DNA from: a virus
Length of the DNA: 47,456 bases
IMG/VR virus record: IMGVR_UViG_3300026484_000160
Coordinates: 1-47,456 of that record
Strand: one strand, 5' to 3'
Numbering within the stretch: the stretch's first letter is position 1; every line of letters begins with the position of its first letter. Positions 37,014 to 44,517 of this stretch are shown piece after piece. The notes beneath the pieces were generated by a model, which searched no databases, had not been told where the DNA came from, and saw only the letters and a program-made list of their open reading frames with translations. The position numbers and the translations under genes are program-made.

Positions 37014-37226
37014 ATGAAAATGAGATTTAACAATACTGAATATTATGATTTCATATATGGTGAAGATTTTGATGTTAGTGAGTGTGAGATAACTTCATTA
37101 GAAGGTGCTCCAGAGAAAATCGGTGGAAGTTTTTATTGTTCAGATAACTTGATATCTTCATTAGAAGGATATCCGTATTGTTCCGAAGATATTGATTCAG
37201 ATTTCAACGAAAACGAGAGCAATTAA
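37014..37226 (+). CDS. Short leucine-rich-repeat-like protein
   Basis: A 70-residue protein. The segment ITSLEGAPEKIGGSFYCSDN then LISSLEGYP is the phage-type leucine-rich repeat ('LtSLeGaPekvgGdFyCsnN'), usually found in many tandem copies in larger proteins. Here there is about one and a half copies, then an acidic tail (CSEDIDSDFNENESN). It is either a small relic with a retained frame or a minimal form. It has its own promoter and leader. No function can be stated beyond probable protein binding. Confidence 0.6.
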   Translation: MKMRFNNTEYYDFIYGEDFDVSECEITSLEGAPEKIGGSFYCSDNLISSLEGYPYCSEDIDSDFNENESN

Positions 37227-37265
37227 TATTTTAAATCTAAAATCAATCAATATTTTGTTTGATTT

Positions 37266-37271
37266 TATAAT
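37266..37271 (+). promoter_or_regulatory. TATAAT promoter without TTAAG element
   Basis: TATAAT followed by the same leader as 36985 and 40798 (ATATAAAGAGAAAAGGATAG). At the position of the upstream element stands AATATT, and the region just upstream is TTTTGTTTGATTT. It may be a host-sigma-only promoter. Confidence 0.6.
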
Positions 37272-37295
37272 ATATAAAGAGAAAAGGATAGAAAG

Positions 37296-37502
37296 ATGAA
37301 AGGTATATTAAAAAATTCAATTAAAGAGCAAGCTTCGGACATTATAGAAGATATGTATTTATTATCTAAAAAAGAATATAATGAAGAAGAATTTAAAGAA
37401 TTAATGAATTCAAAATTAGAACAATTTTTAGATTTTTATAATTTTAGAATAATCGAATATGCGGATAAATTACATAAAGAAAAGTTTGGAGATAAAAATT
37501 GA
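37296..37502 (+). CDS. Hypothetical helical protein
   Basis: A 68-residue, charged, probably all-helical protein (KNSIKEQASDIIEDMYLLSK; FKELMNSKLEQFLDFYNF). I do not recognise it. It has its own promoter at 37266 and an AAGGAT site. Its TGA stop overlaps the TTG start of the next gene (TTGA), so translation of the two is probably coupled. Confidence 0.5.
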   Translation: MKGILKNSIKEQASDIIEDMYLLSKKEYNEEEFKELMNSKLEQFLDFYNFRIIEYADKLHKEKFGDKN

Positions 37503-37984
37503 TAACGTGGACTCAACAATATAGAATAATCTCTAATGTTTTTAAATCTTTCCATATTGGTAAAAAAGTAAATGAAGAAAATCCTTTTACACAAAAAGAA
37601 TTAGAAAGAAATAAATTATTTTTAAATCCTAATAAGTTTCAAAATTACACCTTATCTAATTTCAAAATTCTTATAATTTATGAAATGTGGAAAAATATGC
37701 CTTCTTCTAAAATTTCTTTTCTCAAAATTTTAAATTCTTTAAAAGAAGAAGATATTATGGAATTTAGAAAATTTAAAGGAGATATAGAAAGTTATCATTA
37801 CATTTTTAAAAAAGATACAGATACTCTTAAGACTATAGATATAGAACCTTATGAAGCGTATAAGAAAAAATTAATACATCCTCTTACTTTAGGTTCTTTA
37901 AATATTTCTAAAAATTCGGTAGGAATAATTGGAAAAAAAGATGTATCTAAATCTAAAGTTCTTAGATCTTTTTTTAATTTTTAA
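37499..37984 (+). CDS. Hypothetical protein preceding the clamp loader
   Basis: A 161-residue basic protein. The first possible start is TTG at 37499, overlapping the upstream stop as TTGA; the first in-frame ATG would lose 60 residues. The same TTGA arrangement occurs at 45260. The sequence is helical at first (QYRIISNVFKSFHIGKKVNE; LSNFKILIIYEMWKNMPSS) and ends VSKSKVLRSFFNF, a possible clamp-binding peptide (hydrophobic pair FF). Position before gp44 makes the clamp-loader small subunit gp62 a candidate, but I see no convincing match. Left unnamed. Confidence 0.5.
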   Translation: MITWTQQYRIISNVFKSFHIGKKVNEENPFTQKELERNKLFLNPNKFQNYTLSNFKILIIYEMWKNMPSSKISFLKILNSLKEEDIMEFRKFKGDIESYHYIFKKDTDTLKTIDIEPYEAYKKKLIHPLTLGSLNISKNSVGIIGKKDVSKSKVLRSFFNF

Positions 37985-38023: not shown

Positions 38024-38971
38024 ATGCAAAAGACACCGATTTCTAAAAATGAAAATGAGAAAATATTTGTAGAAAGATATAGACCTAAAACTATAAAAGA
38101 TATAGTTTTACCGAAAGAAATGAAAGAATCTCTTTTAGAATGGAAAAAAGAAGGTCAAATTCCTAACTTATTATTAATATCTAAAACTCCTGGATTAGGA
38201 AAAACATCATTAGCTCATGTTATAGCTAACGAATTAGATGCCGAGATTAAATTTATCAATGCGTCTTTAGAAAGCAATATTGATTTATTAAGAGAATCTA
38301 TTAAAGGGTTTGTAACTACTGCAGGATGGGATAATAGACCTAAAATTGTAGTTCTTGACGAAGCGGACGGACTTAATGAAAGAACTACTCAACCTGCTCT
38401 TAGAGCCTTTATTGAAGAATTCTCTAAAAGTGCTAGGTTTATATTAACAGCAAACAATAAAAACAAAATTATAGAACCTTTACAAGATAGGTTAATGGAT
38501 TATGATTTTGATAAAATGTTCAATGAAAATAAAACTCTTATTAAAGATATCTATTTAAGATGCGAATCTATTTTAGAAGAAGAAAATATCGAACATAATA
38601 AAGAAGATTTAAAATATTTAGTTAAACATTATTTTCCTTCTCAAAGAAGTATCATAATGAAACTTCAACAATTTACTACTAATGGTATTTTAAAAATTAA
38701 CCGTTCTGAAATGAATATTGATGGCGTTTTAGCTGATATTAGAAAATTAGTTGTATCGAAAGATTTTGAAAAGATTAGAGAATTGATAACTGAAATTTCA
38801 GATCCTTCATTAATATTTTCTAATTTTTACGATCATTTAGATGAGTTTGAAAAATCTAAAAGGCCCGGAGTAGTTTTAACATTAGCTAAATATCAATCTT
38901 ATGATAGTTTAGTAAGAGATAGAGTTATCAATGTTATGGCATGTCTAACAGAAATGATGCAATTTTTATAA
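38024..38971 (+). CDS. 44: Sliding clamp loader ATPase subunit gp44-like
   Basis: A 315-residue AAA+ protein; T4 gp44 has 319. The start FVERYRPKTIKDIVLPKEMK is the RFC/gp44 signature ('qKYRPsti.eciLP'). Walker A is TPGLGKTS near residue 57, Walker B VVLDEADGL near 112, sensor 1 FILTANN, and LQDRLMDYDF takes the place of the SRC arginine-finger motif (T4 LQSRCRVITF): Arg is kept but the flanking residues differ. The C-terminal domain SQRSIIMKLQQFTTNGIL also agrees with T4 'FRKTIGELDSYSSKGVL'. It loads gp45, needed for replication and late transcription. It precedes the ParM-like gene by 11 bases. Confidence 0.92.
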   Translation: MQKTPISKNENEKIFVERYRPKTIKDIVLPKEMKESLLEWKKEGQIPNLLLISKTPGLGKTSLAHVIANELDAEIKFINASLESNIDLLRESIKGFVTTAGWDNRPKIVVLDEADGLNERTTQPALRAFIEEFSKSARFILTANNKNKIIEPLQDRLMDYDFDKMFNENKTLIKDIYLRCESILEEENIEHNKEDLKYLVKHYFPSQRSIIMKLQQFTTNGILKINRSEMNIDGVLADIRKLVVSKDFEKIRELITEISDPSLIFSNFYDHLDEFEKSKRPGVVLTLAKYQSYDSLVRDRVINVMACLTEMMQFL

Positions 38972-38982
38972 AGGAGAAATTA

Positions 38983-39897
38983 ATGAATTTACCAATAGGT
39001 ATTGATGTGGGATATAGTTCTACAAAAGTTAGATATAATGAAAAGAATGTGAGGTTTCCAACAGCCATTTGTTTTGCTACAGATGTAGGTACGTCCTTCG
39101 GAGAAGAGGATGTGTATGAATTTGAAGGTGATAAATATTACGTAGGAAAGGATGCTGTAGGTCAGGAAACTTTTAGTACTACTGATTATAAATTCTTATA
39201 TAAGTTTGCTCCTTTAATAATTTATCACATTCTTAAAAAGTTTGATGAACATAATCTATCTAAACCTGTAGAGGTAGTAACAGGTTTAGCTATTACTGAT
39301 TGGGATAAGAGAGAAGAATTTAAAGAAAGAATTTCTAATTTTGAAATTAATGGTGAATCGGTAGAATTAAAAGTATCATTAATTCCTCAAGGTGCGGGGG
39401 TAATTTTAGATTATGTGTATAATCAGAATGGTGGTAGTTTTCCTGAAAGAATCTCTGCTGTAGATATTGGTCATAATACTATTAATTTTTTAAGCTATAA
39501 AAACGGTAAACCTATTAGAAATGAGATTAATGGATATCCTGGTCATGGTGTGACTAGCATTCTTAAACCATTTACAAAATTTTTAGAAAATAAATTCTCT
39601 TTAAGTTTTTCAGAACAAGAAGCTATTGGAATTTTCCAAAAAGGTACTTTTAGATATAATGGTGAGTTACAAGAAGATGTAAGTGAAAAAATTACAGAAA
39701 TTAAATCCCAATTTATTAAAAAACTATTTAATAGTGTTTTAGTTAATGATAAAAAGATTATGGGAATGAGTGATGTAGTTCTTCTAGCAGGCGGTGGTAG
39801 CCTTTTATTAGAAGATGTAAATTTCCCTTCGAACGTATTTAAGGTAGAAGAACCTGTATTTGCAAATGTTAGAGGATATATGGTAAGCAAAGAATAA
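38983..39897 (+). CDS. ParM/StbA-like actin-family ATPase
   Basis: A 304-residue protein with the ATPase motifs of the actin fold: phosphate 1 IGIDVGYSSTKV (residues 5-16), phosphate 2 SAVDIGHNTINFL, and adenosine motif VVLLAGGGSLLL. The last strand EPVFANVRGYM matches the ParM/Alp family ending ('p.fANvrGy'). These proteins polymerise into filaments; plasmid ParM pushes DNA copies apart, binding its adaptor ParR. I chose ATG 38983 (AAGGAG site); an earlier ATG at 38941 lies inside gp44. The next gene encodes a ParR-like protein, so this is likely a two-gene filament system in a lytic phage. Partition, positioning and other roles remain open. Confidence 0.85.
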   Translation: MNLPIGIDVGYSSTKVRYNEKNVRFPTAICFATDVGTSFGEEDVYEFEGDKYYVGKDAVGQETFSTTDYKFLYKFAPLIIYHILKKFDEHNLSKPVEVVTGLAITDWDKREEFKERISNFEINGESVELKVSLIPQGAGVILDYVYNQNGGSFPERISAVDIGHNTINFLSYKNGKPIRNEINGYPGHGVTSILKPFTKFLENKFSLSFSEQEAIGIFQKGTFRYNGELQEDVSEKITEIKSQFIKKLFNSVLVNDKKIMGMSDVVLLAGGGSLLLEDVNFPSNVFKVEEPVFANVRGYMVSKE

Positions 39898-39910
39898 TTT
39901 ATTAAAATTC

Positions 39911-39945
39911 TCTCCTAGTTTGCATTTAGGAATGCATTTAAGAGA
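39911..39945. promoter_or_regulatory. Direct repeats and dyad between the ParM- and ParR-like genes
   Basis: TGCATTTA occurs at 39921-39928 and 39933-39940, 12 bp apart, within an imperfect dyad flanked by TCTC at 39911 and GAGA at 39942. Ribbon-helix-helix proteins bind such closely spaced repeats, and centromeres and operators of ParMR systems consist of them. The unit count here is only two. Candidate operator or centromere; it could equally be an mRNA hairpin. Confidence 0.4.
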
Positions 39946-39974
39946 TGATAAGGATTAACATAAAAGGAAGCAAA

Positions 39975-40256
39975 ATGGCAAAAAGCACGAACGTAGAATT
40001 AGATGATATTAGTTTGAATATTTTAAAACAAGTTGACGGAGTTCATAGAAATTCTTTAATCAATTTAGGAATCATTGCAATTTCTAAAACAGAATATTTT
40101 AAAAGCCTTACAGGTAATCCTTCAGAAGATATTTCTAAAATTGTAGATCTCAATGATGCGGTAAGCAATACAGATAATCTAAAAGAAGAAACTACTCCGC
40201 AAGGTCCTAATAAAAGAAGTAAACCTTCAATTGATATCGGATTTGATGATTTTTAA
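39975..40256 (+). CDS. ParR-like ribbon-helix-helix adaptor candidate
   Basis: A 93-residue protein. Residues 5-45 (TNVELDDISLNILKQVDGVH then RNSLINLGIIAISKTEYF) fit a ribbon-helix-helix fold: a strand, a helix, a turn and a second hydrophobic helix. The rest is polar and probably disordered, ending PSIDIGFDDF. ParR has the same plan: RHH DNA-binding head and flexible acidic-hydrophobic C-terminal peptide that inserts in ParM filaments. It is directly downstream of the ParM-like gene, in the usual parM-parR order. I chose ATG 39975 (AAAAGGAAG site). Homology to ParR rests on architecture and position, not on sequence identity. Confidence 0.62.
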   Translation: MAKSTNVELDDISLNILKQVDGVHRNSLINLGIIAISKTEYFKSLTGNPSEDISKIVDLNDAVSNTDNLKEETTPQGPNKRSKPSIDIGFDDF

Positions 40257-40336: not shown

Positions 40337-40732
40337 ATGCTTACAACACAAGATTTAATGAAAGATTTGGAATGGTTATTTGATGTTCCTGCAGGTAAGG
40401 AACCAAGAAGATATCCGTTAACTAATATTAGTTACGACGACAATAAAGTTTTTGTAGACGTAGCCGTAGCTGGTTTTGGACCTGATGATATTGATATTGA
40501 ATTAGAGGGAGATACTCTAATCATTACAGGTAAAAAATCTGAAGAAAAAGTTGATGAAGATCGTCAATTTGTTCAAAAACATATTAGTTCAGAATCTTTC
40601 GAAAGAAAAATCAAACTCCATCCTGACTTTGTAAGTGGAGATATTTCTGCTACTTATAAAAACGGAATTTTAGGAATTTCAATCACTAAGAAAGAAAAAC
40701 CTAAAAAACTTATTTCTATTGTATCTGAATAG
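40337..40732 (+). CDS. Small heat-shock protein (Hsp20/alpha-crystallin)
   Basis: A 131-residue protein. Residues about 25-120 form the alpha-crystallin domain: NISYDDNKVFVDVAVAGFGP, DDIDIELEGDTLIITGKKSE, SFERKIKLHPDFVSGDISAT and YKNGILGISITKKE, with the conserved 'A.y.nGvL.i.i' ending. A C-terminal I-x-I peptide (LISIV) for oligomer contacts is present. I prefer ATG 40337 because of its strong AAGGAGGT; ATG 40298, in frame, would add MKLAENIFKEVSE. These holdases prevent protein aggregation; phage copies may protect virion assembly. It follows the ParR-like gene and is ended by a good terminator. Confidence 0.92.
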   Translation: MLTTQDLMKDLEWLFDVPAGKEPRRYPLTNISYDDNKVFVDVAVAGFGPDDIDIELEGDTLIITGKKSEEKVDEDRQFVQKHISSESFERKIKLHPDFVSGDISATYKNGILGISITKKEKPKKLISIVSE

Positions 40733-44058: not shown

Positions 44059-44517
44059 ATGGATGAATTAGACTTAGATGAATTATTAAATGATTTAGGT
44101 GAACAAGGTGAACCAGAGATAGAGAAATCAGAGGTAGAGAAACCTACAGTTGAAGATATTAAAAATATAGTATTTGATAAAACTATCGAAAAAGCATCAA
44201 AAGAAGCAAAAAAGACAGAAGATCCTGACAAATATCTAGAAGAATATATAGCAGATATTCAAGGCAGTGTAAGAGAATATTTGACAGAAAGACACAGAAT
44301 TAATGAAGAAATAAAAGCACTAAAGAGTGAACTTAAAGATCTTAAAGAAGAGATGAAAGATGAGGGTATCAAAATTACCGCAGTTGATAAAGCTTTTAAA
44401 GAAATGGTTTCAGAATTAAAAGAAGATTCTCAGGATGCCGTTTTAATAGAGAGTGTTAAAAATATGATTCAAAAAGATCCTACTCTTTACGGGATGGTGA
44501 GAGAAGAGGCTAACTAA
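44059..44517 (+). CDS. Acidic coiled-coil protein, possibly DUF2312/GapR-like in part
   Basis: A 152-residue acidic protein with an EL(N/D)-rich start (DELDLDELLNDLGEQGEPEI) and a central coiled coil. The segment RHRINEEIKALKSELKDLKE then EMKDEGIKITAVDKAFKEMV resembles the DUF2312/GapR segment ('IerLe.Ek.....dikdvyaeAKg.GfdvkalrkiI'), a DNA-structure-binding module; this is a weak likeness. Its stop overlaps the start of the Cas4-like nuclease (TAATG), so both are made together. Perhaps a nuclease or replication accessory. Confidence 0.5.
   Translation: MDELDLDELLNDLGEQGEPEIEKSEVEKPTVEDIKNIVFDKTIEKASKEAKKTEDPDKYLEEYIADIQGSVREYLTERHRINEEIKALKSELKDLKEEMKDEGIKITAVDKAFKEMVSELKEDSQDAVLIESVKNMIQKDPTLYGMVREEAN

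Follow-up and report, generated by a model that had tools for sequence, protein, structure and literature searches.

A ParM/ParR-like actin and adaptor gene pair conserved in T4-type and YerA41-type phages

Two neighbouring genes of a T4-type phage encode an actin-like ATPase of the ParM/Alp class and a small protein whose likeness to ParR in architecture, position and profile similarity is well supported by sequence comparison. We favour, by a modest measure, the reading that the pair is a ParM/ParR-like machine of the phage that positions or separates replicating phage DNA in the lytic cycle. The evidence comes from the conservation and linkage of the two genes, their plasmid counterparts and their setting among replication genes.

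Results

Genomic setting of the pair

The window, by which we mean the whole stretch of DNA analysed, corresponds to one entire IMG/VR record (47,456 bases, G+C content 28.5%) and was taken as a piece of a large phage genome. Its attribution to a T4-type phage in an earlier sequence-only reading is borne out by genes for a gp44 clamp loader, a gp55-like late sigma factor, a gp23-type head protein, a gp18-type sheath and a T4-type baseplate (tube cap, hub and wedge proteins); a primase-type protein is also encoded. The pair lies where that reading had placed it, between the clamp loader gene and an Hsp20 gene, both of which were recovered by family matches (Table 1). A 96-bp tandem repeat (3.6 copies, 91% match) occupies positions 1-348, inside a long minus-strand open reading frame that leaves the record at its start.

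Table 1 Features of the gene pair and its immediate neighbours (positions in the window)
Feature	Position	Strand	Evidence or remark
Clamp loader large subunit (T4 gp44 type)	38024..38971	+	phrog_168 4.1e-80
ParM/Alp-class actin-like ATPase, 304 aa (ATG 38983 to TAA 39897)	38983..39897	+	ALP_N, MreB-like_C, phrog_691, AlphaFold
Phosphate-1 loop D8-V-G-Y-S-S-T-K15	39004..39027	+	D8, G10-S13 and K15 invariant in six relatives
Phosphate-2 motif D161-I-G-H-N-T166	39463..39480	+	D161, G163 and T166 invariant in eight-member alignment
Adenosine motif G270-G-G272	39790..39798	+	Invariant in six relatives
C-terminal P-x-(E)F-A/S-N-x-R-G-Y motif	39853..39879	+	Common to plasmid ParM/StbA proteins; 26 ATPase C-termini compared
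Gap between the pair, 77 bp, with two-copy 11-bp repeat (39921-39943)	39898..39974	+	No iteron array
Candidate ParR-like adaptor, 93 aa, ending IDIGFDDF	39975..40256	+	Downstream homologue in all ten relatives; hhalign P 7.7e-6
Predicted ribbon-helix-helix head (strand about residues 4-9, helices 11-19 and 22-37)	39984..40085	+	AlphaFold; strand inferred from sequence
Disordered linker, nearly without aromatics in the family	40113..40241	+	pLDDT <50 from residue 65
Candidate filament-binding tail FDDF (family WxxF/FxxF)	40242..40253	+	20/40 last-four residues aromatic in ten homologues
Hsp20 small heat-shock protein	40337..40732	+	PF00011 1.3e-18; phrog_432 3e-21

An ATPase of the ParM/Alp class

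The product of the first gene is a ParM/Alp-class ATPase, separated from Hsp70 and MreB by sequence families and not by its fold alone. It had been credited with a complete set of actin-fold ATP-binding motifs and a ParM-type ending, and both are present and conserved: residues D8, G10, Y11, S12, S13, K15, G163, T166 and G270-G272 are invariant in six relatives, and the ending reads P-x-F-A-N-V-R-G-Y. The protein of phage Carin-5 carries E instead of D at phosphate-2 position 161. Pfam searches returned ALP_N (6.3e-17) and MreB-like_C (4.2e-9) above cut-off and FtsA under it, PHROGs returned phrog_691, annotated as 'partition protein' (1.8e-36), and no Hsp70 family matched in the Pfam, PHROGs or NCBIfam searches. 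The NCBIfam equivalogs PRTRC_D and ParM did match, under their cut-offs, which marks the protein as a divergent member of the ParM class. With ALP_N and phrog_691/ParM as its best families, the ATPase groups as the sequence-only reading expected, and not with FtsA, MreB or Hsp70.

The AlphaFold model, of middling confidence (pLDDT 77.7, pTM 0.64), has an actin fold. Foldseek placed Ta0583 and plasmid ParMs first (9e-15 onward), and alignment of the model with ParM and Ta0583 covered 275-285 residues, with VIA Z scores of 17.3 for Ta0583, 16.5 for R1 ParM and 15.8 for Alp7A, against about 14 for actins, Hsp70 and MreB. The structural matches also include filaments that CorM forms with CorR.

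A small protein with a structured head and a fixed aromatic end

Directly 5' of the second open reading frame stands an AAGGA ribosome-binding site. Its product has no significant match in Pfam, PHROGs or NCBIfam; a DUF7302 match (1.5e-4, below cut-off) was set aside, as it involved one member and only the linker of the L017 homologue. The AlphaFold model reaches pLDDT 86-93 over residues 11-40 and is disordered from residue 65, in keeping with the family alignment, which runs from a strand-like start ending in L-D through a helix, an H-R-x-S-L-I-N-x-G-(I/L) block, a second helix and a variable linker to a fixed end. That end is WxxF or FxxF in nine of the ten homologues (FASW in L020), and aromatic residues, which fill half of the last-four positions (20 of 40), account for only 2 of 391 residues in the linkers.

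The strand-helix-helix order followed by a tail is the topology of a ribbon-helix-helix (RHH) protomer, and the protein would act as an RHH dimer; the two-stranded ribbon itself cannot form in a monomer model. Foldseek and VIA searches with the monomer model found no PDB or RHH match and are uninformative on this point; a profile HMM of the family matched nothing among PDB sequences, and no Pfam RHH family was hit. Thus, of what had been proposed for this protein, the reading frame, the disordered tail and the IDIGFDDF end stand, and the RHH head stands in part, with its helices modelled and no counterpart in the PDB. The phage heads carry a net charge of -2 to +1, whereas three of the five plasmid homologues reach +4 to +5. 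At the strand positions presumed to face DNA, most residues of the phage proteins are polar-neutral or acidic; binding to DNA is accordingly plausible but not assured.

Compared with a near-identical phage, both genes show a dS of about 0.34-0.35; dN is 0.004 in the ATPase gene and 0.018 in the small-protein gene (dN/dS about 0.012 and 0.05, respectively), and by this measure both are under strong purifying selection. Together with the conservation of the pair in ten relatives, these low ratios exclude chance as its source.

The two genes stay linked while their neighbours change

Relatives of the ATPase were drawn from IMG/VR and from named phages, and in all ten examined a homologue of the small protein is encoded downstream, frequently with unrelated genes between. 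The two genes are adjacent in L015, L019 and the 183-kb relative (of L013/L016); a methylase-like gene separates them in L014, a dUTPase gene in vB_Yru_GN1 (hereafter GN1), YerA41 and Carin-5, two unrelated genes in L017 and L049, and homing-endonuclease-like genes in L018 (4791-5891) and L020 (4981-6602). The ATPase frame of L018 seems to be interrupted, only a 165-residue open reading frame remaining. A reciprocal scan of IMG/VR with the small-protein alignment alone gave six loci, all of which also carry the ATPase; five were already known, and the sixth, L049, has a 61%-identical ATPase just upstream. That the pair is kept while the intervening genes change is strong evidence for a shared function. 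A further viral scan with the GN1 ATPase found nothing, and no relative turned up in bacterial genomes when two peptide patterns of the phage ATPase alignment were used. In a tree of 26 ATPases, the nine that belong to this group cluster on a single branch with support 100/99, distinct from the branches of Campylobacterota plasmids and of Firehammervirus, Vibrio and Rhizobium phages; the deeper order is not resolved.

In GN1, YerA41 and Carin-5 the pair sits among topoisomerase, exonuclease, dUTPase and helicase genes. In a time course of lytic YerA41 infection, the second topoisomerase, a DNA polymerase III subunit, the dUTPase and the helicases from the cluster are classed as middle-phase genes (PMC7354516), and the YerA41 pair itself would presumably be expressed with them. 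Nine records were searched for a tyrosine integrase and six for a large serine recombinase; neither was found, most of the IMG/VR records possibly being fragments, and tubulin (PF00091) is absent from six records, four of which may be fragments (controls detected, 13 of 14). A 152-residue open reading frame at 44059-44514 of the window has a weak partial match to phrog_95, 'integrase' (6e-4), and probably encodes no working integrase.

Counterparts on Campylobacterota plasmids

The best non-phage matches to the ATPase (33-35% identical, E 3e-36 to 2e-38) are encoded by Nitrosophilus labii pHRV44, Campylobacter iguaniorum pCIG1485E and C. upsaliensis plasmid 2. These Campylobacterota plasmids are the nearest non-phage relatives, from which nothing firm about the host follows. 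Their ParM/StbA genes are followed directly by a small RHH-like gene whose product has the same linker and tail layout as in the phages, and four of five such ParR-position proteins have an aromatic end (YGW, AWG, VAW, EGF). When the phage and plasmid small-protein profiles were compared by hhalign, they aligned in register over residues 1-58 with the P value given in Table 1, and the profile score of 34.7 lies well above those of 200 column-shuffled controls (mean 9.1, maximum 15.5). The systems differ in that these are plasmid-borne, the heads are more basic in two of the three named plasmids, and the ATPases fall on separate branches; in addition, iterons lie upstream of the genes in the C. 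upsaliensis and Nitrosophilus plasmids, and no such array accompanies the phage pair. What had been described as a ParM/ParR-like cassette is therefore upheld as regards the ATPase and the likeness of the adaptor, while the RHH dimer and its binding to DNA keep the status of predictions.

Search for a centromere-like site

No iteron- or centromere-like repeat array was found beside the pair in the window or in any relative examined. The region 39911-39945, earlier put forward for binding assays, is not supported as a site: it holds a two-copy 11-bp repeat alone, and this repeat is eroded in a relative that shares 96-99% identity in the flanking proteins. In L013, whose ATPase is 99% identical, the gap between the pair measures 112 bp and has diverged. 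Between the genes of GN1 and of the 183-kb relative, too, no centromere repeats were found in a shuffle-based screen that recovered one of five plasmid controls, so this genome-wide negative is weak. The 63-bp repeats of the 183-kb relative (G001, the record of L013) were considered as a centromere and rejected, since they are coding and specify 21-residue leucine-rich-like repeats.

These 63-bp arrays span several genes of G001 (1-1740, 37016-37538 and 182344-183351; unit LTSLEGxPxxVxGxFxCxxN). Both ends of the contig lie inside them, which suggests that the assembly broke there. Repeats of the same type also occur at 7921-8649 of L014, and a remnant of one to two repeats is present at 37014-37226 of the window.

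Discussion

In the mechanism that we propose, the ATPase would polymerise into actin-like filaments, as its fold suggests, and the small protein would form an RHH dimer with flexible arms, each ending in an aromatic tail that, by analogy with ParR, may dock on the filament. The RHH head would tie the filaments to phage DNA, or to a DNA-bound protein, and the machine would in this way push replicating genomes, position them or separate them in the course of lytic infection. This reading draws on the ParM/Alp class of the ATPase, the conserved linkage, the match to plasmid ParR profiles, the head-and-tail architecture and the purifying selection, as well as on the replication-gene neighbours, the lack of a tyrosine integrase or large serine recombinase in the records searched and the precedent of AlpA/AlpC (see below).

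Against it stand the lack of an adjacent centromere-like array, the neutral-to-acidic head, the absence of an RHH match for the monomer model and the middling confidence of the ATPase model. Alternatively, the actin system may have been put to another use, with an adaptor that makes no contact with DNA and filaments that organise the replisome, the membrane or the host cytoskeleton. A role with cargo other than DNA has been proposed for chromosomal relatives such as CorM/CorR. The neutral-to-acidic head, with few basic residues on the strand presumed to read DNA, would fit such a role, as would the lack of a centromere and the appearance of CorM/CorR filaments among the structural matches; however, residues 1-58, the head among them, can still be aligned with the plasmid ParR-position proteins and the replication-gene context favours DNA, and we hold this alternative to be rather unlikely. 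Far less credible is an Hsp70/DnaK-type chaperone with the neighbouring Hsp20 as its partner. The adjoining Hsp20 gene, the label 'DnaK-like chaperone' in GN1 and YerA41 and the shared actin fold (Z about 14 to Hsp70 nucleotide-binding domains) speak for it, but the note in the YerA41 record itself cites the ParM_like domain cd10227, and no Hsp20 is annotated by the pair in GN1, YerA41 or Carin-5. We reject this reading, given that no Hsp70 family matches and that the 304 residues are all actin fold, with no substrate-binding domain.

A plasmid-type partition function deserves about as much credence as the repurposed actin system, and is thus also improbable. Here the phage would persist as an unintegrated episome, in a carrier state or an unstable lysogeny, and the pair would segregate it at host division. 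The homologous architecture on Campylobacterota plasmids agrees with this, the absence of an integrase fits it too, and pairs of a ParM-like protein and an adaptor do occur in plasmid prophages (PMC8026635); in the Bacillus pumilus myophages Bp8p-C/T, the ParM-like protein is reported to influence lysogeny (PMC8026635, PMC6669507). Against it, no centromere repeats lie by the phage genes, unlike the upstream iterons of the C. upsaliensis and Nitrosophilus plasmids, and the pair is found inside lytic replication operons; in YerA41 the genes on either side are expressed in the middle phase of lytic infection (PMC7354516).

If the pair does move replicating DNA in the lytic cycle, a more specific extension is conceivable, although we regard it as doubtful: a virulent T4-type/YerA41-type lineage may have its own actin spindle with a dedicated adaptor and no adjacent centromere, as a counterpart of PhuZ where no tubulin was found. 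PhuZ tubulin is the usual model for DNA organisation by lytic phages, and the actin cases come mainly from temperate or plasmid-like phages. An actin and adaptor pair in the replication operons of large lytic phages, the cultured YerA41 included, makes it testable why a lytic phage would need an actin that moves DNA.

Comparison with known systems

This is not the first phage actin, and phage ParM-like proteins are already widely annotated. The rarity suggested by the sequence-only reading was overstated: relatives of the ATPase occur in at least 41 phage records, PHROGs has a 'partition protein' family, and pairs of a ParM-like protein with an adaptor have been published for Bacillus phages and as AlpAC (PMC8026635, PMC4446434). 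The phrog_691-type ATPases of Firehammervirus, Vibrio, Rhizobium and Acinetobacter phages likewise belong to large phages; they are about 28% identical and form a separate clade, and no RHH-like gene was seen downstream of them in the loci read. In the more distant Rhizobium and Vibrio phages (L004 3687-3992, L007 3492-3887, L008 3534-3890) the ATPase gene is preceded by one for a conserved small protein that begins with (M)xKITxESxQxxxSINxxF, is not RHH-like in look and may be a different partner. In Bacillus phage G (gp506-gp505; L010 3941-5438) a ParM-like gene is followed directly by one for a small protein whose head is RHH-like, and in Moorella phage MTATph1 (L011 4001-5662) the two are separated by one gene; the tails of both small proteins end in a leucine-rich LLGN motif, and these loci are probably unannotated ParM/ParR pairs.

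Bacillus phages Bp8p-C/T, B83 and IEBH also combine a ParM-like protein with a small adaptor, and differ, by their published descriptions, in being plasmid prophages or unstable lysogens and, for Bp8p-C, in having an HTH adaptor (PMC8026635, PMC6669507). The AlpC-AlpA-alpS system of the Corynebacterium prophage CGP3 is likewise a phage actin with a DNA adaptor that aids phage replication; there the adaptor gene and the alpS sites lie upstream of the actin gene in an integrated prophage, whereas here the adaptor gene lies downstream and no site was found. Loss of alpA or alpC halves the phage copy number and the two support replication rather than segregation (PMC4446434), a precedent indicating that such pairs can serve replication. 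A PhuZ/TubZ spindle, by contrast, needs a GTPase of the tubulin/FtsZ fold, the family absent from the six records searched.

Among the closest known systems are those of the Yersinia phages YerA41 and GN1 and the Cobetia phage Carin-5, whose ATPases are 47% identical and whose homologous partner, annotated as 'hypothetical protein', is encoded two genes down. They differ in the intervening dUTPase gene, and in their records the ATPase is labelled a DnaK-like chaperone or a partition protein and the partner is never linked to it; the name DnaK-like chaperone for the ATPases of GN1 (L001 4001-4918) and YerA41 (L054 3001-3918) is likely a misannotation. In the searchable literature, nothing was found on this family of adaptors in T4-type or YerA41-type phages, nor on its being linked there with the ATPase, and the two YerA41 publications mention neither ParM nor actin, so the partner family appears to be unrecognised in these phages. 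The comparison with ParM/ParR corrects the 'DnaK-like' annotation and provides a family of hypothetical proteins with a hypothesis for its function.
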